In this document: positions 6,887-56,563 of the stretch, one piece after another | Layout: each line of letters starts with the position of its first letter | Position numbering within the stretch: position 1 is the first letter of the stretch | The notes under the pieces: model-generated | Told to the model about the DNA's origin: nothing | What the model saw: only the letters and a program-made list of their open reading frames with translations | Database searches by the model: none | NCBI RefSeq assembly: GCF_030161375.1 | Contig: NZ_BSSQ01000014.1 | Span: 281,095-345,094, forward strand | Direction: 5' to 3' | Length of the DNA stretch: 64,000 nucleotides | Source of the DNA: Paenibacillus glycanilyticus | GTDB lineage: Bacteria; Bacillota; Bacilli; Paenibacillales; Paenibacillaceae | Program-made: the position numbers and the translations under genes

Positions 6887-6929
6887 AAAAAAACTCCCGC
6901 CCCTAGCGTATTATCGCTAGGGACGAGAG
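6887..6929 (-). terminator. T-box attenuator hairpin
   Basis: On the minus strand 15-base arms (6915-6929 and 6894-6908) with a six-base loop are followed by seven T residues. Pairing of the 5' part with the T-box core would form the alternative antiterminator. Confidence 0.93.
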
Positions 6930-7151
6930 ATTATTCCCGTGGTACCACCCTAGTTAACGGCCGGCATGCTTTGCCTTCCGTTCACTCTAAATCCTTAACG
7001 CGGACTATACGCTGCGTTATTCACGCAAAAGCTCCAAGGCGAGATTCATATCGCTGCAGGTCCGGCTTTCACCATTCGCCGGCTCTCTAAGCCTTGCAAT
7101 GCGACATTACTGCTCCTCTTCAACGCCATTAATTATAGAAAAACATGGTTA
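6887..7151 (-). promoter_or_regulatory. T-box leader of leuS (leucine specifier)
   Basis: tRNA-sensing leader RNA. The conserved T-box core reads AGGGTGGTACCACG on the minus strand (around 6937-6951), with the UGGU that pairs with the uncharged tRNA ACCA end. The stem-I region contains AGAGAG and GGTGAAAGCCGG. The specifier triplet is CTC (leucine) at 7043-7041, in the context GAATCTCGCCTTGGAGC. It ends in the terminator at 6887-6929. Uncharged tRNA-Leu would favour the antiterminator and switch leuS on. Confidence 0.93.
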
Positions 7152-14520: not shown

Positions 14521-15033
14521 TCAGGACTGACTTCTCCACGCGGTTTTCCGTATATAATCTCCTATCCCTTGCACATCATTTATCTCGAATAACATAGCCC
14601 CTGCCGGAATATGGTCTTCTCGCAATCGATATTCCGGCCAGACGGCTACAGCCTTAATTCCCTTAAGGTCAACCAGCAGCCGTTCATCGTCAGCATGCCT
14701 GATGATTACCAGTTTCGGGAAAACCTCTTGTTTGAACCCTTCGACGAGGACAAAAGCATCAGCAGGCGCCTCCCCGATCAATTCAAGCAGCCGGGACGGT
14801 TCCTCTTTCACAATAGCGGTCCGTTCAGAAGAAGTAATAGCCGACCATATGGCGCCGGAATTGCGGTGCCGTGCCGTGTCCGCGTGGGGAGCCTCCGCTT
14901 CGAATTCATGCCCGTCATGTTTGATCGTAGCAACCTTTATGCCGCGCGAAACCAAGTCATCGATTAAGCGGCACATCAATGTTGTTTTGCCCGTATTTTT
15001 ATAGCCCGTGATTTGAAAGACGGCTGCCGCCAA
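14521..15033 (-). CDS. mobB: MobB, molybdopterin-guanine dinucleotide adaptor GTPase
   Basis: 170-aa P-loop protein that assists MobA in attaching GMP to molybdopterin. Walker A is GYKNTGKTT (about residues 10-18). The KHDGHEFE and DTARHRNSGA blocks and LVEGFKQEVFPKL are family signatures. The start appears to be TTG at 15033, behind GGGGTG; it lies 35 bases inside the end of mobA, so translation is coupled. Last gene of the nitrate/molybdenum transcript. Confidence 0.93.
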   Translation of the reverse strand: MAAAVFQITGYKNTGKTTLMCRLIDDLVSRGIKVATIKHDGHEFEAEAPHADTARHRNSGAIWSAITSSERTAIVKEEPSRLLELIGEAPADAFVLVEGFKQEVFPKLVIIRHADDERLLVDLKGIKAVAVWPEYRLREDHIPAGAMLFEINDVQGIGDYIRKTAWRSQS

Positions 15034-15649
15034 CCGCTACACCCCATTCCTCTTCTGCAACTTGCAACGCCGCCTCATATTGCTCCGGCGTATTGATGTT
15101 CTCAATAAAGCTGAGGTTAATGCCCGCGGCATGAAACTTGTCCTCCGTCACCCGGACAACATTCAACTTGTTCAGTAAACCTTTCATCCTGTAATCGCCT
15201 TCCTGCAGGCAGCGTTCAACTTGTTCCACGCACTCCGCCCGGTAAATGGCCTGAAGCGGATGAAGCTGGCCTTCCAGGCAAGGGACGGCTGCCATACTGC
15301 CGCTTTCCTCCATTTCCCTTAATAAAAGGGCTGCCGCTTTATCCGATACAAATGGCATGTCGCAAGCCGACACCCACACGGCAGAATAACAATTGTACGC
15401 AAGTGCGGTATGAAGAGCAGCTAGCGGCCCGCGGCCGGGCGTTTCATCAATCAAGTAAGGATAGTTCAAACCGGATAAGAGCTTGCCTTGTTCTTCCGAT
15501 GCGACTACAACGGTAACGCTGCTGCATAACCGGCTCATTTGACGGCTTACATGCTCAATCATGGATTGTTCGCCAATTGGCAAGAGCGCCTTCATCAGAC
15601 CGCCCATACGCCTCCCTTGCCCTCCCGCCAAAATAACTCCTCCAAGCAT
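14999..15649 (-). CDS. mobA: MobA, molybdenum cofactor guanylyltransferase
   Basis: 216-aa nucleotidyltransferase that transfers GMP from GTP to molybdopterin, giving the MGD cofactor needed by NasC-type enzymes. The N-terminal GTP-binding motif LAGGQGRRMGG is followed by KALLPIG, and the metal-binding Asp lies in VSACDMPFV. The ATG at 15649 overlaps the nasC stop as TGATG, an arrangement for translational reinitiation. Positioned with moeA, mobB and the molybdoenzyme. Confidence 0.95.
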   Translation of the reverse strand: MLGGVILAGGQGRRMGGLMKALLPIGEQSMIEHVSRQMSRLCSSVTVVVASEEQGKLLSGLNYPYLIDETPGRGPLAALHTALAYNCYSAVWVSACDMPFVSDKAAALLLREMEESGSMAAVPCLEGQLHPLQAIYRAECVEQVERCLQEGDYRMKGLLNKLNVVRVTEDKFHAAGINLSFIENINTPEQYEAALQVAEEEWGVAVGGSRLSNHGL

Positions 15650-17805
15650 CAATTCGTCATCCGCCCTTTCTGCTCCAGCAAATATTCGGCAAGCGGCTGA
15701 ATTCGAACGGCACTTGTCTTGAAATCAGGCATCCGGCAGTTAGGATCCAGCAAATCATTGGTCACGCGATTGACGTTCTGGGCATCGCCCCAATGCATCG
15801 GAATAAACAAGGTATCTTCCCGGATCGCAGAGGTAAACTTCGTCCGGACAATAACCGTTCCCCGGCTGGACCGCACGCTCGCCAGCGCGCCATCCTCCAG
15901 CCGGTGTTTTCTCGCCGTTAACGGATGGATTTCCAATACATTCTCAATCTCTCGCGCGGCCAGAACAGGACTTCTTCGGGTCTGTACTCCGGTTAGATAA
16001 TGAGAAAGCAGCCGACCGTTCGTTAAGTACAGCGGATATTCTTCCGATGGCTGTTCGGCAGGCGATTGATGATCCACTTGTTGAAATACCGCCAGCCCGT
16101 CCTGATGGGCGAACCGTTCGCCGAACAACCGCGGGGTCCCCGGATGGTCCAGGGCCGGACAAGGCCAATAAATCCCTTCTTCCTTGCGAAGCCTGTCATA
16201 AGTTATGCCATAATAGTCCGCAATACCGCCTCGGCTGGCAACTCGCAGCTCATTGAAAATTTCTTCTGACTGACGGAATGGGAAGTACTGCTCCTTACCA
16301 AGCGAATAGGCCAAATCGCATAATATTTGCCAATCATGGCGTACTTCTCCTGGCGCAGACCGGCCTGCGGGACGCAACAATACCCGGCCCTCGAGATTTG
16401 TCATCGTCCCTTCATTCTCAAGATAGGCACTGACCGGCAGCACAATATCGGCCAGCTTAGCGGTCTCCGACAGGAACATATCCGCCACTACCAGAAATTC
16501 CGCCCGCTCCAGCGCTTCCTCTACCAACGTTGCGTTTGGATTCGACACGATCGGATTGGAGCCCATCACGAATAAGCCTTTAATAGTGCCGCCATGCACA
16601 AGCTCCATCATTTCGTAGGCGGAAACACCTTTGCCAGGCAAATCATTCGGGTCAATCCCCCACACGCCAGCCACATAAGCACGGTCATCGGGATTTTCAA
16701 TCAGCCGGTAACCCGGAAGCTGGTCGGCTTTTTGCCCGTGTTCCCGGCCGCCTTGCCCGTTGCCTTGCCCGGTTACCGCACCGTAACCGCAGCCGGCTCT
16801 TCCGATTTTGCCCGTGGCCAGCACCATGTTCAAGAAATTGCGCACAGCCATATGGCCATCGGCATGTTGTTCAACCCCGCGGGCCGTAAATACCATACCC
16901 GTGCGGGCCTTGCCAAATTGAATAGCCGCCTTGCGAATCAGCTCGATACTTACGCCGGTGTAGTCGGCAATCTCCTCCAAGTTAAGCGAAGAGACATGTT
17001 CTTTCACTGCGTCAAATCCTTTTGTCCGGTTTCGGATAAACTCTTCATCCGTCAGCTTCTCGTCCACGATCACTTTAAGCATGGCGTTAACGAGTGCCGC
17101 ATCCATCCCCGGCTTGACTTGCAGATGAATATCAGCGATCGATACGGTGGCAGACGCACGCGGATCAATCGCAATAATGACAGCGCCATTATCTTTTGCT
17201 CTCGTGAAATAAGGCATCAGCGTTGGCTGGCATTCGGCGATGTTGGTACCGGCTAGAATAATGCATTCGGCCATCGGAATGTCCGACATGGCGAAAGTCA
17301 GCCCCCGGTCGATGCCAAAGGTCTTTACCCCGGCTGACGCCGCAGCCGACATGCAAAACCTGCCGTTATAATCGATATATTTGGTCTTAAGCGCTACACG
17401 CGCGAACTTCCCAAGCAAATAAGCCGATTCGTTGGTAAGCGATCCCCCGCCGTACAACCCGATTGTATCCGCGCCATGTTTGGTTTGAAGCTCCGTGAAC
17501 CGGCTGCTGACGGCCTCCAGCGCTTCTTCCCAAGAGACGCGGGTTAATGCCCCGTCTTTGCGCATCATCGGGTGCAGCAGTCTTTCTCTGCTGACCGCAT
17601 GCTGATAAGCATTCATCCCTTTGACGCATAAACGTCCTTCCGAGGCTTTGTTCGGAATCGCGGTCACCTGATAGGCGGGACGACTGCCAGAGAGATCCTC
17701 CACAACTTCCATCTTGCATTGAACGCTGCAGAAGGGACATTGCGTTGCCATAATCTTGTTTGCTTGCTCCACCGAGAAAGTCATCGTATCTATTTGACGC
17801 TCCAT
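15649..17805 (-). CDS. nasC: Assimilatory nitrate reductase catalytic subunit
   Basis: 718-aa molybdopterin oxidoreductase reducing nitrate to nitrite in the cytoplasm. The N-terminal 4Fe-4S motif is CPFCSVQC with a fourth Cys in GRLCVKGMN. The Mo-bisMGD domain follows (FCMSAAASAGVKTFGIDRG, then AGTNIAECQPTLMPYFTRA), and the dinucleotide-binding C-terminal domain ends near residue 700. There is no twin-arginine signal, so the enzyme is cytoplasmic and assimilatory rather than Nap-like. Length matches Bacillus NasC. The start is an ATG after GGACGGAG, 16 bases inside the nasB end. Confidence 0.95.
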   Translation of the reverse strand: MERQIDTMTFSVEQANKIMATQCPFCSVQCKMEVVEDLSGSRPAYQVTAIPNKASEGRLCVKGMNAYQHAVSRERLLHPMMRKDGALTRVSWEEALEAVSSRFTELQTKHGADTIGLYGGGSLTNESAYLLGKFARVALKTKYIDYNGRFCMSAAASAGVKTFGIDRGLTFAMSDIPMAECIILAGTNIAECQPTLMPYFTRAKDNGAVIIAIDPRASATVSIADIHLQVKPGMDAALVNAMLKVIVDEKLTDEEFIRNRTKGFDAVKEHVSSLNLEEIADYTGVSIELIRKAAIQFGKARTGMVFTARGVEQHADGHMAVRNFLNMVLATGKIGRAGCGYGAVTGQGNGQGGREHGQKADQLPGYRLIENPDDRAYVAGVWGIDPNDLPGKGVSAYEMMELVHGGTIKGLFVMGSNPIVSNPNATLVEEALERAEFLVVADMFLSETAKLADIVLPVSAYLENEGTMTNLEGRVLLRPAGRSAPGEVRHDWQILCDLAYSLGKEQYFPFRQSEEIFNELRVASRGGIADYYGITYDRLRKEEGIYWPCPALDHPGTPRLFGERFAHQDGLAVFQQVDHQSPAEQPSEEYPLYLTNGRLLSHYLTGVQTRRSPVLAAREIENVLEIHPLTARKHRLEDGALASVRSSRGTVIVRTKFTSAIREDTLFIPMHWGDAQNVNRVTNDLLDPNCRMPDFKTSAVRIQPLAEYLLEQKGRMTN

Positions 17806-19844
17806 GCCATCTCCGTCCTTTCCGCCAACTGAAGGCGGGTTAGCAGTTCTTCCATATTGCCTCTGTCCAACAACTTCTCTCGAAGAGGCTGTAGTCCCAT
17901 CCGCTCAAGCCATTTCCAAGGACGTTCCCCATAATGGGCAGTCTCCCGGTATAACTGAATACAGGCCACGGCGAGTTGCATCGCCATCTCCTCCTCCGCT
18001 TCTACGGCAAGCAGCTGCGCTTGCTTAACCGGATGCTCCGCATGCCCGCCGGCGTAAACTTCCCAGCCTGCCGGAACAGCGGCAAGCCCGAAATCCCTGA
18101 CTAGCACATCCGAAGAACTTAAATAATGATCTGATAATTCCAACCTGACCGGATGCGGAAGCAAGATTTCCTTCGAGCGGAAAAAGACCTCCCTGGCGCA
18201 AACGTCCGACTGTTCACCGCTACCCGGCGGTTCCTCAACGCCATGCTTGGCTTCGGCTGCTAATCCCGCGTAATAAGGAATGGCAGCACGGCAGACGATG
18301 CAGCCTCCGGCTTTCTTCCACCCGAGTTTTTCCTGGATTTCCGCGACTTGCGTTGCTTCCAGCTTCGCGATTGCTTCTTTTATTTCTTCATGCCCAAGTT
18401 CGGTACAGCTGCATATAGGATCGGTTTTTTTCACCCCGACGCCAGCTCCGGCCAGCACGCAAGACAATACCGCGCCAACCAACTGCTTGCAACCGCCGCA
18501 GGAACCGGAGGCTTTTGTTTTCTCGCGAATCTGTTCAACCGTCTGCAAACCGTCTTCTTGAATGGCGCTCACAATGGCGCCTTTGCTTACGCCGTTGCAA
18601 GAACAGACGGTTTGGTGATCAGCCATCGCCAGAACCGCTTCATCGTTGCCTCCGGCTCCCCCCTCCGGCTTCTCGAATAAAATTTCGGCAGCCGTCTTTT
18701 TCTTCAAATAATCAAGCAGCTTCATCCCTTCCGAACTGTCGCCGTATAGGACCGCGCCAGCTATCTTGCCATTCCTGACCGTCACTTTCTTATACGTCCC
18801 CTGCAGTCCGTTGTACTGTTGAAGCGCTACCTCGACATCCCCTTGAATGTCTCCTGCCGAGAATACGTCCACGCCGGATACCTTAAGCATCGAGTAAGGA
18901 ATGGAGCCTTTGTAAGGCTCAGTGTCCACTCCCGCTAACACGCGAGCAAGAACCTTCCCTTGTTCGTATAGGGGTGCGACCAGACCATATACCGTCCCGT
19001 TATGCTCCGCGCATTCGCCAACCGCGTAAACATGGGGCGTGTTGGTCCGCATGCAATCATCCACGAGGATTGCCCGGTTCGTTGCTATGCCGCTGCCGGC
19101 AGCTAGTGCGGCATTGGGGCTAATGCCTACGGCCAGAACGATCAGATCCGCGCTAAGCTTTGTACCGTCACTGAATAGCAACCCCTCAGCCCGTTTGCGT
19201 CCGAGTATCTTCTCGGTCCGCTTCTCCATCCAGAACCGCATGCCTTGTTGCGCGAGTTCACGCTTCAACATATCGGCCGACATCGCGTCCAGCTGTCTGT
19301 TCATCAGATTAGAAGCGTTATGGACGACATGCACTTCCATACCGAGGTTAAGAAGACCGCGCGCCGCCTCAAGCCCAAGCAATCCGCCGCCGATCACCGC
19401 CGCTCTCCGGTACTGCTCCGACGCTTCAATCATCGTCTCACAGTCCTTAATATTGCGGAAAGCCGTTACGCCAATCTTATGGATGCCCGGAATAGACGGG
19501 ATAAAAGCCGAAGAGCCCGTCGCCAGAATAAGTTCGTCATAAGGCAGCGCCGTACCGGATTCTAGAATAATCTTCTTGCCTGCCGTATCGATGCGAACGG
19601 CTTTTTCGCCAAGTATCAGACGAATGCCGCGTTCCTTGTACCAGCCGAAATCATTAATCGTAATATCCGTGATCGAGGTGTCTCCCTGAAGTACTTTGGA
19701 CAACATGATCCGGTTGTAATTCGGGTGGGGCTCATCCCCAATAATCGTGATCTCGAAGGCATCGGGCGATAACCGGTATAACTCCTCCACGCATCTGACG
19801 CCAGCCATTCCATTGCCGATTACCGCTAGTTTCCTTGTCGTCAC
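17790..19844 (-). CDS. nasB: Assimilatory nitrate reductase electron-transfer subunit
   Basis: 684-aa NADH- and FAD-dependent protein that passes electrons to NasC. An N-terminal pyridine-nucleotide disulfide oxidoreductase module has GNGMAGVRC for FAD and GGGLLGLEAARGL for NADH. Two BFD-type [2Fe-2S] domains follow: CSCNGVSKG with CGGC (about residues 415-450) and CSCTELGHEE with GCIVC (about 480-530). The C-terminal 150 residues resemble only the ferredoxin-like half-domain of nitrite/sulfite reductase, without the siroheme cysteines. That matches Bacillus NasB rather than nitrite reductase NasD. GTG start with GGAGG; it overlaps the moeA stop as GTGA. Confidence 0.9.
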   Translation of the reverse strand: MTTRKLAVIGNGMAGVRCVEELYRLSPDAFEITIIGDEPHPNYNRIMLSKVLQGDTSITDITINDFGWYKERGIRLILGEKAVRIDTAGKKIILESGTALPYDELILATGSSAFIPSIPGIHKIGVTAFRNIKDCETMIEASEQYRRAAVIGGGLLGLEAARGLLNLGMEVHVVHNASNLMNRQLDAMSADMLKRELAQQGMRFWMEKRTEKILGRKRAEGLLFSDGTKLSADLIVLAVGISPNAALAAGSGIATNRAILVDDCMRTNTPHVYAVGECAEHNGTVYGLVAPLYEQGKVLARVLAGVDTEPYKGSIPYSMLKVSGVDVFSAGDIQGDVEVALQQYNGLQGTYKKVTVRNGKIAGAVLYGDSSEGMKLLDYLKKKTAAEILFEKPEGGAGGNDEAVLAMADHQTVCSCNGVSKGAIVSAIQEDGLQTVEQIREKTKASGSCGGCKQLVGAVLSCVLAGAGVGVKKTDPICSCTELGHEEIKEAIAKLEATQVAEIQEKLGWKKAGGCIVCRAAIPYYAGLAAEAKHGVEEPPGSGEQSDVCAREVFFRSKEILLPHPVRLELSDHYLSSSDVLVRDFGLAAVPAGWEVYAGGHAEHPVKQAQLLAVEAEEEMAMQLAVACIQLYRETAHYGERPWKWLERMGLQPLREKLLDRGNMEELLTRLQLAERTEMAWSVK

Positions 19845-21145
19845 AACGTTAATCCTCCGTTTGCCATATGCGTTAGTAATAGAAAGGAGACGATCTCGCC
19901 TTTTGCCGCGCCTCGTCCGCCCGCAGGAATTACGGCAATCGCGTTTGCCTCGGCGAACGCCGCAATATTGCCGGATTTATCGTTTGGCAACGGATTAATC
20001 CGCCACATGCCAAGCTCCATCGTTGCAATCGAACGGATATACCGCGGATAAGGACAAGGCTTGCCCACCGAATCCTCCAGCTTCCCCTTGAGCCATTGAT
20101 TGCGGTAGCTTTTCATTCCTTTCAACCATTGAACCGTTGGTTTTACAAGCAGTTCCAAACCGGAATAACATGCAGACGGATTGCCCGACAACCCCAGCAG
20201 CAGACAATTTCCTTTTTTAAATGCCGAGGTTGGCGTTCCGGGTCTCATGAGCACCTTCGTAAAAACAGGCTCGAAACCGGCGCTCGCGGCGGCGCGTTCC
20301 ACATAATCATGGTCGCCTACGGATATCCCGCCCGTCGTAATGACAATATCCGCTTGTTCCGCGGCTTGCTCAATCTCTCTTGTCAGAACAGCAAGTTGAT
20401 CCGGCACGGGCTTTCTGCGAATGACATGCGCGCCTAACTGTTTCAGGAAGGCATATACCGCAAGACTATTCGCGTCATAAATCCGATTCGCGGATAAGGC
20501 TGCGCCCGGTTCCAGCAGCTCATCGCCAACTGGCAGCACGGCGATCCGGGGTTTGGCGTAAACAACGGCATCCCTTTGCCCGTATGAGGCAAGTACCGCC
20601 ATCTCTTTCGCCCCGATCACTGTTCCTTTCACAAGAATCAGCTTGCCCGGCGCCAAATCCTCTCCCGCTTCCGCAACATGCTTCCCGCTTGGATGCGGAC
20701 GGTCGATTCCGATCCATCTCGTGCGGCCGTCATCTTCTATACTGGTAGTAACTGCTTCTTGCATCACTACGGTATCGTAACGGTGCGGCACGGGTGCTCC
20801 CGTAAAAATCCGCACGCAATCCGCATCCTCTATAGCTATGCCTCCCGTACACTCCTCCACCCATTCGCGCGAAACGCCGGCTTTTATCTCCGCAATGACC
20901 CGAAGCCTGGTCTCTTGGCCAAGTTTTGCGCCAATCGTCGCGTTTGATCGAACGGCGTACCCGTCCATCGCCGCACGGCGGAATGGAGGCATTGGAAACG
21001 GCGTGAGAAAATCTTCCGCAAGCACTCTGCCAACGCAATCCTCCAAATCCAACCGTTCCGCCCGGCCAGGGGACATTCCCTCACACAAATGACGAATCGC
21101 TTCTTCTACAGATACAACGAACTGCTGCTTCTGCAAGGTAGCCAT
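19841..21145 (-). CDS. moeA: MoeA molybdopterin molybdenumtransferase
   Basis: About 434-aa enzyme that inserts molybdate into adenylylated molybdopterin. Family motifs are PPFRRAAMDGYAVRS (about residue 55), RIFTGAPVP, the MoaB/Mog-like TTGGISVGDHD and the LLGLSGNPSACY block near residue 330. The start is ambiguous: MATLQ at 21145 lies 12 bases after GGGGAGG, while MIREM at 21157 abuts that site. First gene of moeA-nasB-nasC-mobA-mobB, so the cofactor is made together with the enzyme that uses it. Its leader carries an ANTAR-type RNA and terminator. Confidence 0.95.
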   Translation of the reverse strand: MATLQKQQFVVSVEEAIRHLCEGMSPGRAERLDLEDCVGRVLAEDFLTPFPMPPFRRAAMDGYAVRSNATIGAKLGQETRLRVIAEIKAGVSREWVEECTGGIAIEDADCVRIFTGAPVPHRYDTVVMQEAVTTSIEDDGRTRWIGIDRPHPSGKHVAEAGEDLAPGKLILVKGTVIGAKEMAVLASYGQRDAVVYAKPRIAVLPVGDELLEPGAALSANRIYDANSLAVYAFLKQLGAHVIRRKPVPDQLAVLTREIEQAAEQADIVITTGGISVGDHDYVERAAASAGFEPVFTKVLMRPGTPTSAFKKGNCLLLGLSGNPSACYSGLELLVKPTVQWLKGMKSYRNQWLKGKLEDSVGKPCPYPRYIRSIATMELGMWRINPLPNDKSGNIAAFAEANAIAVIPAGGRGAAKGEIVSFLLLTHMANGGLTL

Positions 21146-21180
21146 TTCACGGATCATCCTCCCCACCGGTCAAAATGAAC

Positions 21181-21219
21181 AGAAAAAGCCCGTTCCCTAT
21201 CGAGTCGGGAATCGGGCTT
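21181..21219 (-). terminator. Leader terminator ahead of moeA
   Basis: On the minus strand AAGCCCG-A-TTCCC pairs with GGGAA-CGGGCTT, followed by TTTTTCT. It lies between the promoter and moeA, so it must be read through for the operon to be expressed. Its 5' arm contains the GCC that also closes the second hexaloop. Confidence 0.85.
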
Positions 21220-21253
21220 CATTGCCAAGGTCAACAGCACATCGTTGTGCTGT
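21215..21253 (-). promoter_or_regulatory. ANTAR-type dual-hexaloop RNA, moeA-nasBC leader
   Basis: On the minus strand stem-loop P1 is ACAGCAC-AACGAT-GTGCTGT (21253-21234), with seven base pairs and a six-base loop. After a seven-base linker a second loop GGC-AATGAA-GCC (21226-21215) follows. Both loops have A at position 1 and G at position 4, the invariant positions of RNAs bound by ANTAR antiterminators. P2 has only three base pairs, but its 3' arm is part of the terminator 5' arm, so the two are mutually exclusive. The transcript starts near 21259. Confidence 0.75.
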
Positions 21254-21265
21254 ACATTTGTTTTG

Positions 21266-21294
21266 AGCATAATGGAAGAATGATTGCATGTCAA
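21266..21294 (-). promoter_or_regulatory. Promoter of moeA-nasB-nasC-mobA-mobB
   Basis: On the minus strand TTGACA (21294-21289), a 17-base spacer and TATGCT (21271-21266) predict a start near 21259. The -35 is inside a GlnR/TnrA-like box. Confidence 0.8.
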
Positions 21295-21352: not shown

Positions 21353-21369
21353 TGTTAAGTTTATTGACA
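21353..21369. promoter_or_regulatory. GlnR/TnrA box over the nitrate-transporter -35
   Basis: TGTTA-AGTTTAT-TGACA is a perfect TGTNA-N7-TNACA site. It overlaps the -35 and is centred about 38 bases upstream of the predicted start, mirroring the box on the moeA side. Confidence 0.75.
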
Positions 21370-21393
21370 TGAGTTTGACAATTCCCCTATAAT
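21364..21393 (+). promoter_or_regulatory. Promoter of the nitrate transporter gene
   Basis: Perfect TTGACA (21364-21369), an 18-base spacer and perfect TATAAT (21388-21393) predict a start near 21400, directly at the first hairpin. Confidence 0.85.
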
Positions 21394-21401
21394 TCGAATT
21401 G

Positions 21402-21452
21402 GGTTCACAATGATGTGACCGTACGATCCGGTGGGTACAATGTTGTACCGCC
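21402..21452 (+). promoter_or_regulatory. ANTAR-type dual-hexaloop RNA, nitrate-transporter leader
   Basis: P1 is GGTTCAC-AATGAT-GTGACC (21402-21420, one bulged T). P2 is GGTGGGTAC-AATGTT-GTACCGCC (21430-21452, one bulge). The linker is nine bases. Both loops are six bases long with A1 and G4, exactly the constraint known for ANTAR-protein target RNAs. A strong terminator follows seven bases later. The cognate ANTAR regulator is not encoded in this window. Confidence 0.85.
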
Positions 21453-21459
21453 TTCGGCA

Positions 21460-21507
21460 AAGAGGCCGCTAACTGTCCGCAAGGGCAGCTTGCGGCCTCT
21501 TTTTTAT
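21460..21507 (+). terminator. Leader terminator ahead of the nitrate transporter
   Basis: Ten-base arms AAGAGGCCGC (21460-21469) and GCGGCCTCTT (21492-21501) enclose an inner CTGTCC-GCAA-GGGCAG hairpin, followed by a T-run. It sits in the 5' untranslated region 80 bases before the start codon, so it acts as an attenuator. Confidence 0.92.
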
Positions 21508-21589: not shown

Positions 21590-22804
21590 ATGAGTAATCC
21601 TACATCGTTTTGGAAGAGCGGGCACAAGCCATCATTATTCAGCGCATTTATGTATTTCGATATCAGCTTTATGATCTGGGTCCTTATTGGTCCGCTTAGC
21701 GTCGTTATAATGGGAGATTATGATATGACGCCCGTGCAAAAAGCGAACCTTGTCGCCCTGCCGGTGCTTGGCGGCTCCATACTGCGTCTCGTATTTGGAT
21801 TTCTTACCGATTATATCGGGCCTAAAAGAACCGGGCAGCTTGGCATGCTGCTTACGATGATCCCCCTCGTCTGGGGCTGGAAATTTGTTGATTCGCTCGG
21901 AGATCTGCACATCGTTGCGCTTATGCTCGGCGTATCCGGCGCTTCCTTCGCAGCCGCGCTCCCGCTCGCAAGCCGCTGGTATCCGCCGCAATATCAAGGA
22001 CTTGCCATGGGCATTGCGGGCGCCGGGAACAGCGGCACGGTATTCTCCACGTTGTTTGCCAACCGGATTGCGCAGCATTACGGCAGCTGGGAAGTTGTTT
22101 TTGGCCTTGCCCTTATTCCCATCGCGATTGCCTTCATCGTCTTTACGGTCTTCGCCAAAGACAGTCCGAATCAGCCAGCACCCAAAAAGCTGTCCCATTA
22201 CGCAAAAGTATTGAAGCAACGCGACACGTGGCTCTTCTGCATTATGTACAGCGTAACGTTTGGCGGGTTTGTTGGCCTTTCCAACTATTTGACGATCTTC
22301 TTCAATACGCAATACGGGCTATCTGCCGTTAAAGCTGCCGACTTCACAACGCTTTGCGTCATCGCGGGCAGCTTCTTCCGGCCGATCGGCGGCTATTTGT
22401 CCGATAAACTCGGCGGTATCAAAGTACTCATGATTTTGTATACAGGAGCAGCCGTTATGCTCGCCTCCATCTCGAGTCTCCCACCGCTTTATCTTGTCAT
22501 TGCGATGTTGTTCATCGGAATGATGTGCCTTGGCGCAGGCAACGGTTCCGTGTTCCAGCTCGTGCCGCAGCGGTTCGGCGATGACATCGGCCTTGTGACC
22601 GGTATCGTAGGAGCGGCAGGCGGCATTGGCGGATATGCGCTTCCTCTCATTCTGGGCAACCTGTATCAATCTACAGGTTCTTATACGCCAGGCTTCCTTA
22701 TCTTGTGCGGCATTGCGATACTCAGCGTTGTCATGCTCGCGATCGCCCAGCTGGACTGGAAGAAGAATTGGATCGGAGAAGGCGGCAAGGCGCGCAGCAT
22801 GTAA
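21590..22804 (+). CDS. nasA: Nitrate/nitrite transporter, MFS NNP family
   Basis: 404-aa, 12-helix major-facilitator protein of the nitrate-nitrite porter family, importing nitrate for assimilation. Nitrate signature regions are GAGNSGTVFSTLFANRIA (about residue 145) and GAAGGIGGYALPLILG (about residue 345). The short cytoplasmic loops are typical of the Bacillus NasA/NarK group. ATG start after GGAGGGATTGGAAT. Divergent from moeA-nasBC and behind its own ANTAR-type leader. The choice between nasA and narK is by context: the linked reductase is assimilatory. Confidence 0.92.
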   Translation: MSNPTSFWKSGHKPSLFSAFMYFDISFMIWVLIGPLSVVIMGDYDMTPVQKANLVALPVLGGSILRLVFGFLTDYIGPKRTGQLGMLLTMIPLVWGWKFVDSLGDLHIVALMLGVSGASFAAALPLASRWYPPQYQGLAMGIAGAGNSGTVFSTLFANRIAQHYGSWEVVFGLALIPIAIAFIVFTVFAKDSPNQPAPKKLSHYAKVLKQRDTWLFCIMYSVTFGGFVGLSNYLTIFFNTQYGLSAVKAADFTTLCVIAGSFFRPIGGYLSDKLGGIKVLMILYTGAAVMLASISSLPPLYLVIAMLFIGMMCLGAGNGSVFQLVPQRFGDDIGLVTGIVGAAGGIGGYALPLILGNLYQSTGSYTPGFLILCGIAILSVVMLAIAQLDWKKNWIGEGGKARSM

Positions 22805-51928: not shown

Positions 51929-51945
51929 TGTGATGTTTACTAACA
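51929..51945. promoter_or_regulatory. GlnR/TnrA box in the amtB leader
   Basis: TGTGA-TGTTTAC-TAACA is a perfect TGTNA-N7-TNACA site located between the predicted start (about 51960) and the start codon, a position expected for repression. Confidence 0.75.
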
Positions 51946-51995: not shown

Positions 51996-52191
51996 TATAT
52001 AATCTTCTAAAATAGAAAAAAAATCTAACGTTCGTGTCTTAATTCGAACGGAATGTTAAGTTTTTTCACAAATGAGCTAGGGAATTGGTTCTAGAGCATA
52101 TATATTCTTCGCATTTTCAATCTAATACTTTGGAATCATAGTCTACCAAAATTCAATATTCAGGCGAAATTTGTACATTCATGTAACACGT

Positions 52192-56168: not shown

Positions 56169-56563
56169 CGATGATCTCCCCCTCTAGCATCTATGTACGT
56201 ATACATCAAAATAATTGTAGCATGTTTGTACTCATGAAAAAAGACCATAAAGGGTATCTACACAAAAGCAGCCCCTTAATCATCAATAAAATGATGACCA
56301 AGGAACTGCCGGTCGCTATAATGGCAAGAAAAAAACCCGCGAATGCCGTCCGACTTACATGCTTCTGAACCCGCTCTCGCAGGTGGGTGTCCGCAGAAAC
56401 GTTTTTGAGATCCCCTTTAGAGGGCCTGTCAGCCGCGCTTCAATGTTGGTCTCCCTAGAAACAGCCATTGGTTCAAAACAACGAAAAGCCGAAACGAACA
56501 TCGCAGGATGTATTGCTATTATAGACGTAAATCCGACAAAAGTAAACTTGTGTCTGCTGCTAT
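56169..56563. other. 395-bp stretch without a confident gene
   Basis: Holds the promoter region of the DUF1499 gene and, on the minus strand from 56439 to 56206, a 77-codon open frame lacking any ATG, GTG or TTG before a strong hydrophobic segment (FAGFFLAIIATGSSLVIILL). The segment has a basic N-terminal flank (RERVQKHVSRTAF) and looks protein-like; it may be a gene with an unusual start or a decayed fragment. No terminator or RNA motif recognised. Confidence 0.4.

Follow-up and report, generated by a model that had tools for sequence, protein, structure and literature searches.

The locus raises the question of whether the leader of a nitrate transporter gene in Paenibacillus glycanilyticus is an RNA that an ANTAR protein reads, as the original prediction proposed. 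The window, i.e., the whole stretch of DNA that was analysed (64 kb), holds this gene, narK, and a divergent operon, moeA-nasB-nasC-mobA-mobB, with an intergenic region of 423 bp between moeA and narK. From its sequence and that of its relatives, we consider it highly probable that the narK leader is a transcription-attenuation switch which an ANTAR protein would read, and which is shared with the moeA and nirB operons.

Hairpins and terminators in the nitrate leaders

The features of the region are as follows; locus L002 is the nirB locus of the same genome and lies on another contig.

14521-15033, minus strand: mobB-like gene, end of the moeA-nas operon (family search)
14999-15652, minus strand: mobA-like gene, penultimate in the moeA-nas operon (family search)
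15649-17805, minus strand: nasC, assimilatory nitrate reductase catalytic subunit (NF047855, 1178 bits, cut-off 1100)
17790-19844, minus strand: nasB/NirB-like FAD-NAD(P)H electron-transfer subunit (family search)
19841-21166, minus strand: moeA, molybdopterin molybdotransferase (family search)
21185-21220, minus strand: moeA-leader terminator, overlapping P2 (terminator scan)
21215-21226, minus strand: moeA-leader hairpin P2, ggc-AATGAA-gcc (hexaloop scan and first covariance model)
21235-21252, minus strand: moeA-leader hairpin P1, cagcac-AACGAT-gtgctg (hexaloop scan and first covariance model)
21266-21294, minus strand: promoter-like site of the moeA operon, TTGACA-17-TATGCT (promoter search)
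21353-21369, plus strand: GlnR/TnrA-type box TGTTAAGTTTATTGACA, an exact match to TGTNAN7TNACA that overlaps the narK -35
21364-21393, plus strand: sigma-A-type promoter of narK, TTGACA-18-TATAAT
21405-21418, plus strand: hairpin H1, tcac-AATGAT-gtga (hexaloop scan)
21434-21449, plus strand: hairpin H2, ggtac-AATGTT-gtacc, 5 bp
21455-21468, plus strand: hairpin H3, cggc-AAAGAG-gccg, 4 bp (hexaloop scan)
21459-21506, plus strand: intrinsic terminator, an 11-bp outer stem (21459-21469 with 21492-21502) and a U tract (folding and terminator search)
21590-22804, plus strand: narK/nasA-type nitrate/nitrite MFS transporter, 404 aa (MFS_1, E 2.9e-38)
L002:9909-9948 (G000:C16:392908-392947) and downstream: nirB-leader element, gaatac-AATGGC-gtattc and ggc-AATGAA-gcc with an overlapping terminator

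The narK product scores 297.9 bits against TIGR00886, slightly below the cut-off of 311.7, and the nearest narK loci in relatives, which place the window in Paenibacillus, show 95-97% identity. Elsewhere in the window, a T-box leader (6916-7132, minus strand) and a 6S RNA (56330-56512, minus strand) both score far above their Rfam cut-offs.

The narK promoter agrees with the consensus in 12 of 12 letters. Because of this, transcription is expected to start near 21400, and H1 would be the earliest structure formed. This agrees with the proposal that the hairpins begin at the predicted transcription start. The proposed pair of A1/G4 hexaloops (A at loop position 1, G at position 4) was recovered, with loops at 21409-21414 in H1 (called P1 in the original prediction) and 21439-21444 in H2 (called P2), and so was the terminator after them. 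Both hairpins are thus real, but a third one, H3 (loop 21459-21464), had been overlooked, and it overlaps the terminator. H1, H2 and H3 are all A1/G4 hexaloops in the leader (21400-21507), and H1 has two further G-C pairs beneath a bulge (21402-21420). Since the loop and the 3' arm of H3 lie inside the 5' arm of the terminator, H3 and the terminator are mutually exclusive.

The whole narK leader folds at -50.8 kcal/mol (z -5.6). This is the terminator form, compared with -33.0 kcal/mol when all the hexaloop hairpins are enforced; the corresponding values are -31.8 and -21.9 kcal/mol for the moeA leader and -48.9 and -42.0 kcal/mol for the nirB leader. The H1-H2 segment folded alone is unremarkable (z -0.74). 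Thus, the case for an ANTAR RNA is one of pattern, terminator and conservation, not of stability.

Sister elements, which the original prediction had overlooked, occur in the moeA and nirB leaders. In the nirB leader, an arm of P2 doubles as the start of a long terminator. H2/H3 and the moeA and nirB leaders each have two stem-loops in tandem, with stems of 3 bp or more and hexanucleotide loops, as is characteristic of ANTAR RNAs, and all six canonical loops in the genome carry A1/G4. We scanned both strands of the window for a hexaloop pair with an overlapping terminator and found two matches, both in the moeA-narK intergenic region, versus a mean of 0.083 in sixty dinucleotide-shuffled windows (56 with none, three with one, one with two). 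The 15 alternative letter choices at loop positions 1 and 4 gave 0 matches in the real window.

A first covariance model was built from an alignment of 44 sequences. The 92 pairs collected were reduced to 44 at a 90% identity cut, the two window elements were added, and L024 (minus strand) and L030 (plus strand) were removed; rows were selected for A1/G4, at least 4 pairs in P1 and at least 3 in P2. In the genome search, where 150 first-look candidates were scored, the moeA (E 1.1e-7), nirB (E 2.0e-7) and narK (E 2.1e-6) leaders, all three of them in the training set, ranked ahead of the next match at 0.29. A held-out model was trained on 20 elements of other species (14 nirB-, 4 moeA- and 2 nasB-headed), with no narK leader and with the clade of the window excluded. 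Its top match within the window was the moeA leader (E 5.5e-7); narK H2-H3 came next (E 0.026), followed by a match at E 1.7. It matched the nirB leader at E 5.1e-10. With either the first model or the held-out one, the moeA-leader element (21185-21252, minus strand) outscores the narK element. No Rfam ANTAR-type family matched the window at curated thresholds or the leader at E up to 5; the permissive leader matches are at chance level, e.g., STnc400 with 18.3 bits against a cut-off of 80.

In the 44-row alignment, loop letters 1 and 4 are invariant, A1/G4 being the selection rule, and so are the C-G closing pairs below the loops of both hairpins (44/44), the closing pair known from NasR SELEX (PMC7496416). 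Letters 2, 3, 5 and 6 of the P1 loop vary; in the P2 loop, variation is confined to 3, 5 and 6, and every row has A as letter 2. In the outer pairs of the stems, 64 cells have changed on both sides versus 25.1 in shuffles. Because the rows were selected for hairpins, this covariation test counts chiefly for the outer pairs and closing letters. Shifting the structure along the alignment destroys the pairing (88.4% versus 23-45%). Among matches of the first model, which was trained on A1/G4 rows, A1/G4 is found in 82/82 P1 and 80/82 P2 loops.

The ANTAR protein and its signal

The genome has exactly one ANTAR gene (PF03861, E 5.9e-19), on contig C16 beside the nirB operon, and a second gene follows it after 3 nt. 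In the same search, 14 control genomes, Bacillus subtilis among them, gave no ANTAR match.

L002:8071-9138, minus strand: TrpD2/YbiB-like (Glycos_transf_3) gene
L002:9142-9804, minus strand: ANTAR gene, divergent from nirB, product of 220 aa

Two genes downstream of nirB look, from their sequence, like nirC and sumT. The profile of the regulator best matches the structure 6wsh ('Response regulator', E 1e-17), which we take to be EutV. It also matches 1s8n (Rv1626), 4akk (NasR) and 1qo0 (AmiR), and the match to 1s8n covers both the receiver and the ANTAR domains.

How would such a protein sense its signal? In the EutV system, activation is through phosphorylation by EutW of a receiver with a conserved acceptor Asp. 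Here, as judged by eye from the alignment, the acceptor position is His in the window genome's regulator, and most orthologues have His, Asn or some other residue there. A receiver domain was not recognised by Pfam in the regulator, and we regard its N-terminus as a degenerate receiver (pseudo-receiver). NasR senses through a NIT domain fused to ANTAR, whereas the regulator here has this degenerate receiver in its place: ANTAR is the sole Pfam family at E <=0.001 in the protein and in 25 orthologues, and the 18 families that these 25 match up to E 1 do not include NIT. NasT is an ANTAR regulator without a NIT domain, and in Paracoccus and other proteobacteria NasS-NasT likewise acts on nas leaders. 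Nitrate or nitrite frees NasT from NasS (PMC3795266), a cytoplasmic NrtA-like protein encoded with it. None of the six PF13379 (NasS/NrtA-like) proteins found in the genome is encoded beside the ANTAR gene. Since all six have lipoprotein-type signal peptides (by eye), none resembles a cytoplasmic NasS.

The neighbour of the ANTAR gene is instead TrpD2/YbiB-like, directly after it in 37 of 45 distinct ANTAR loci; three of the eight loci that lack this neighbour hold distant paralogues. In seven further ANTAR genes (L011, L012, L013, L015, L016, L018 and L025), narK comes next in place of TrpD2. We considered the TrpD2/YbiB-like protein as a dedicated sensor partner. This idea is weakened because such genes, 37-38% identical, adjoin nasC-like genes in three genomes free of ANTAR (G039, G046 and G047). 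The gene looks like a nitrate-assimilation gene in this bacterial order.

All 37 TrpD2-adjacent rows of the regulator alignment (35 distinct genes) have a WWC motif and a second Cys in the pseudo-receiver, a pair that is absent from all four TrpD2-less rows. L077, L132, L141 and L144 were left out of this alignment, and the Cys pair of L078, L131, L140 and L143 was read from it. The WWC and second Cys are a possible redox or ligand site.

Two further arrangements were observed in relatives. In L009, L011-L013, L015, L016, L018, L025 and L043, an ANTAR gene (38-43% identical) is placed between nirB and narK, and elements point in both directions; L009 has no divergent-side match. In L136 (G011:C1, about 750100-750650), a distant ANTAR paralogue, 31% identical, lies near three genes that were named by eye: two resemble agmatinase/arginase genes, and one resembles a peptide-binding-protein gene. 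This suggests a separate nitrogen-related ANTAR system.

We suggest that the inducer is probably nitrate or nitrite, and the gene content makes a dependence on nitrate plausible. The alternative that survives best keeps the ANTAR-driven switch and gives it another signal, such as nitrogen status, redox through the Cys pair or another metabolite, with nitrate specificity residing elsewhere. The regulator without a recognised NIT domain, the six PF13379 proteins with no cytoplasmic-looking NasS among them and the WWC and second Cys of the TrpD2-linked orthologues would all fit it. However, each of the three strong targets is an operon for nitrate or nitrite, and both NasR (PMC7496416) and NasS-NasT (PMC3795266) respond to nitrate or nitrite. 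We therefore regard a different signal as possible, though a good deal less probable than nitrate or nitrite.

The probable functional pair and its conservation

The original prediction took H1 and H2 as the ANTAR pair. An ANTAR-type pair is indeed present, but since H3 overlaps the 5' arm of the terminator, the canonical P1-P2 pair is likely H2 and H3. We give little credence to the reading that H1 and H2 are the functional pair and H3 merely the foot of the terminator. Both H1 and H2 are A1/G4 hexaloops with C-G closing pairs, and an A1/G4 hairpin lies 44-62 nt upstream of H3 in 30/43 narK leaders, compared with 0/32 divergent leaders and 2.4% of random stretches (32 of 39 divergent-side matches were used, 7 near-identical ones being excluded). 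However, H1-H2 has no overlap with the terminator, while the moeA and nirB leaders have two hairpins each, the second one overlapping the terminator. The linkers point the same way. Natural eut linkers in E. faecalis are 5-12 nt, and induction of eutP fell drastically with a linker of 14 nt (PMC3369931). The H2-H3 linker of 5 nt is within this range and the H1-H2 linker of 13 nt exceeds it. In the window the first model, trained on H2-H3-type pairs, gives H2-H3 39.5 bits; its sole other plus-strand match (21403-21430, 13.3 bits, E 0.55) takes in only H1 and does not extend over the H1-H2 pair.

The history of H1 also argues for H2 and H3 as the pair. In the clade of L021-L024 and L026-L030, the H1 hexaloop has decayed with H2-H3 retained (by eye), so H1 seems dispensable there. 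In the 30 leaders the H1 hairpins have eight distinct loops, A1/G4 being required by the test, and H1-type hairpins without A1/G4 are listed only in L021 and L024. By eye, H1 is also apparently present in L009, with two G-U pairs, and in L017, outside the range of the test. We infer that H1 is probably an accessory ANTAR-type hairpin, an extra binding arm that would raise occupancy or load the protein early. For NasR, binding to one hairpin is about 12-fold weaker than binding to a pair (PMC7496416), and thus an added hairpin could raise occupancy.

Conservation in relatives supports the reading as an ANTAR-type antitermination RNA. The original prediction had named two results that would overturn that reading, hexaloops not conserved in relatives and a genome with no ANTAR-domain protein, and neither was observed. 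The first model has a match upstream of narK in 42 of 46 narK loci. P2 overlaps a terminator in 40/43 narK-side and 39/39 divergent-side matches, compared with 7.3% of random positions, leaving 3/43 narK-side matches that fail the terminator test. The narK element of L010 is degenerate, with a P2 loop GACGAG and no U tract. The core GCAANGRRGC, from the published eut 13-mer AGCAANGRRGCUY (PMC3369931), is found in P2 of 39/43 narK and 14/32 divergent leaders tested. On the divergent side of L003-L048 (n=38), 15 elements stand before moeA, 15 before nasB and 8 before nirB.

The four narK loci without the RNA are L040 (Domibacillus), L042, L046 (Niallia) and L048 (Cohnella sp. REN36, where narK matched only from residue 100). 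All four are in genomes without an ANTAR match, and L040, L042 and L046 keep a divergent nirB/nas-like gene beside narK, yet have no element. With L013 and L014 left out, the ANTAR status of the RNA-bearing narK loci was positive for five and for 34 of another 35.

Across 60 genomes, including that of the window, 39 have both RNA and ANTAR, 3 ANTAR only, 0 RNA only and 18 neither. The Fisher p of 1.4e-12 ignores kinship and overstates independence, because the genomes are related and the sets overlap: for example, G070 shares its ANTAR coordinates, within the match, with G030, and G091 with G130, and the 46 loci, 60 relatives and 299 class genomes are not independent. The ANTAR-only genomes are G037, which has a clear ANTAR orthologue and no RNA model match at E 0.01, and G041 and G052, where ANTAR is only 27-31% identical. 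All 27 of the 60 genomes with NasC above the curated cut-off have ANTAR and RNA. Thus, the presence of the pathway and of ANTAR are indistinguishable there. Seven other genomes do separate the two. In G016, G024, G031 and G042, ANTAR and one RNA match are present although matches to the NasC family are weak; G039, G046 and G047 lack both ANTAR and RNA and yet encode NasC-like proteins (950-1048 bits, below the cut-off of 1100).

One genome outside these 60 departs from this pattern. L038 (P. xylanexedens DSM 21292) has narK and nasB-side RNAs and no ANTAR match, and the identity of its best nirB match reaches only 56%. We treat G098 and G237, whose coordinates are identical, as this same genome; in the class-wide set, 24 of 299 genomes are RNA-positive and only G237 of these has no ANTAR match. 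The RNA can therefore persist without the gene, and a recent loss or an assembly gap are the suggested alternatives for L038.

These data also bear on two readings in which no ANTAR protein takes part. Hairpins at a 5' end can simply protect a transcript, and a strong terminator is present, as an ordinary attenuator or stabilising 5' hairpins would have it. Nevertheless, this reading is very improbable. The loops keep A1, G4 (the selection rule) and the C-G closing pairs constant while positions 2, 3, 5 and 6 vary in P1/H1 and 3, 5 and 6 in P2. There are also zero RNA-only genomes among the 60, and the RNA tracks ANTAR in NasC-free genomes and is absent from ANTAR-free ones with NasC- or NarK-like genes. 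A metabolite riboswitch for nitrate or molybdate/Moco could account for an element common to nitrate and Moco gene operons, but it is extremely improbable given two or three short hexaloop hairpins with no aptamer-like core and no Rfam riboswitch match to the leader at E up to 5. We rejected both readings.

A probable two-layer nitrate switch

The GlnR/TnrA-type box follows the consensus as printed in PMC3412718. Since it overlaps the narK -35, the promoter layer is not replaced by antitermination, and the two probably work in concert. In 40/43 narK leaders, a box is found at 40-140 nt upstream of the element end, versus 2.3% of random positions, and in 27/39 divergent upstream regions versus 2.3% by chance. 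The nirB promoter has an exact box (L002:9821-9837), and the moeA promoter of the window only one with a mismatch (by eye). The loci L040, L042 and L046, which are free of ANTAR, have boxes too, so the GlnR/TnrA layer is separate from antitermination. A second box (L002:9760-9776) lies on the ANTAR-gene side of the nirB region, and the window holds two more exact boxes, at 51929-51945 and 52054-52070, 125 bp apart. In Klebsiella nasF, promoter control by NtrC is combined with antitermination by NasR. We suggest that two inputs are probably joined here as well: nitrogen status, acting at the promoter, and a nitrate-linked signal, acting at the terminator. A Paenibacillus transcriptome in which nas genes are up under nitrogen-fixing conditions (PMC4774088) fits promoter-level nitrogen control.

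We propose the following mechanism for the ANTAR-read switch. RNA polymerase would start near 21400, with the -35 inside the GlnR/TnrA box and thus presumably under nitrogen-status control. Unaided, the RNA would fold the terminator at 21459-21506 and transcription would stop before narK. Since the terminator form is favoured in this case, the balance must be shifted, while transcription is under way, by a protein bound to H2-H3. An active dimer of the ANTAR protein should grip H2 and H3 by their A1/G4 hexaloops; GCCG would be kept in H3, part of the 5' arm of the terminator would be lost, and polymerase would read through into narK. H1 would serve as the probable extra arm. The same protein would open the moeA-nasB-nasC-mobA-mobB and nirB operons through their own P1-P2 pairs and terminators. 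Uptake, reduction to nitrite and reduction to ammonium would thereby come under one coordinated switch.

Of the known systems, NasR-nasF of Klebsiella oxytoca shares the two A1/G4 hexaloop hairpins with C-G closing pairs, placed before a terminator and in front of nitrate-assimilation genes (PMC7496416). It lacks the third hairpin of the narK leader, and a further difference is that here three separate operons appear to be served by one regulator. In this last respect the system resembles EutV-eut of Enterococcus faecalis, where several operons are under one ANTAR protein and which also shares the best structure match, the P2 core and the exclusivity of P2 and terminator (PMC3369931). The targets predicted by Ramesh et al. 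2012 (PMC3369931) include leaders of nitrate/nitrite transporters and nitrite reductases. Thus, this kind of element is already known. The main text of that paper does not name Paenibacillus (0 occurrences) and does not mention three-hairpin leaders under the phrases searched. Among the literature matches listed, none dealt with ANTAR RNAs, or with nitrate control by ANTAR proteins, in Paenibacillus, and 'ANTAR domain' together with Paenibacillus gave no match. What we describe is the ANTAR mechanism as already known, but in a new setting and with a variant that has three hairpins.

A more far-reaching proposal, which we put forward only tentatively, is that the overlapping pairs H1-H2 and H2-H3 load the regulator on the nascent RNA before the decisive grip on H2-H3. 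The regulator would then be a new nitrate- or nitrite-responsive type of ANTAR protein, sensing without NIT, NasS or phosphorylation, via the WWC/Cys pseudo-receiver and possibly with the TrpD2/YbiB-like protein.

Since a NIT domain, a NasS and a phosphorylated receiver were all not found, how the ANTAR protein senses nitrate becomes a direct question for the bench. The third hairpin bears on whether ANTAR recognition is strictly two-hairpin. Nitrate assimilation in Bacillota is usually discussed in terms of GlnR/TnrA control. On the reading given here, the nitrate-to-ammonium pathway of many Paenibacillaceae would be under an RNA antitermination regulon atop that control.
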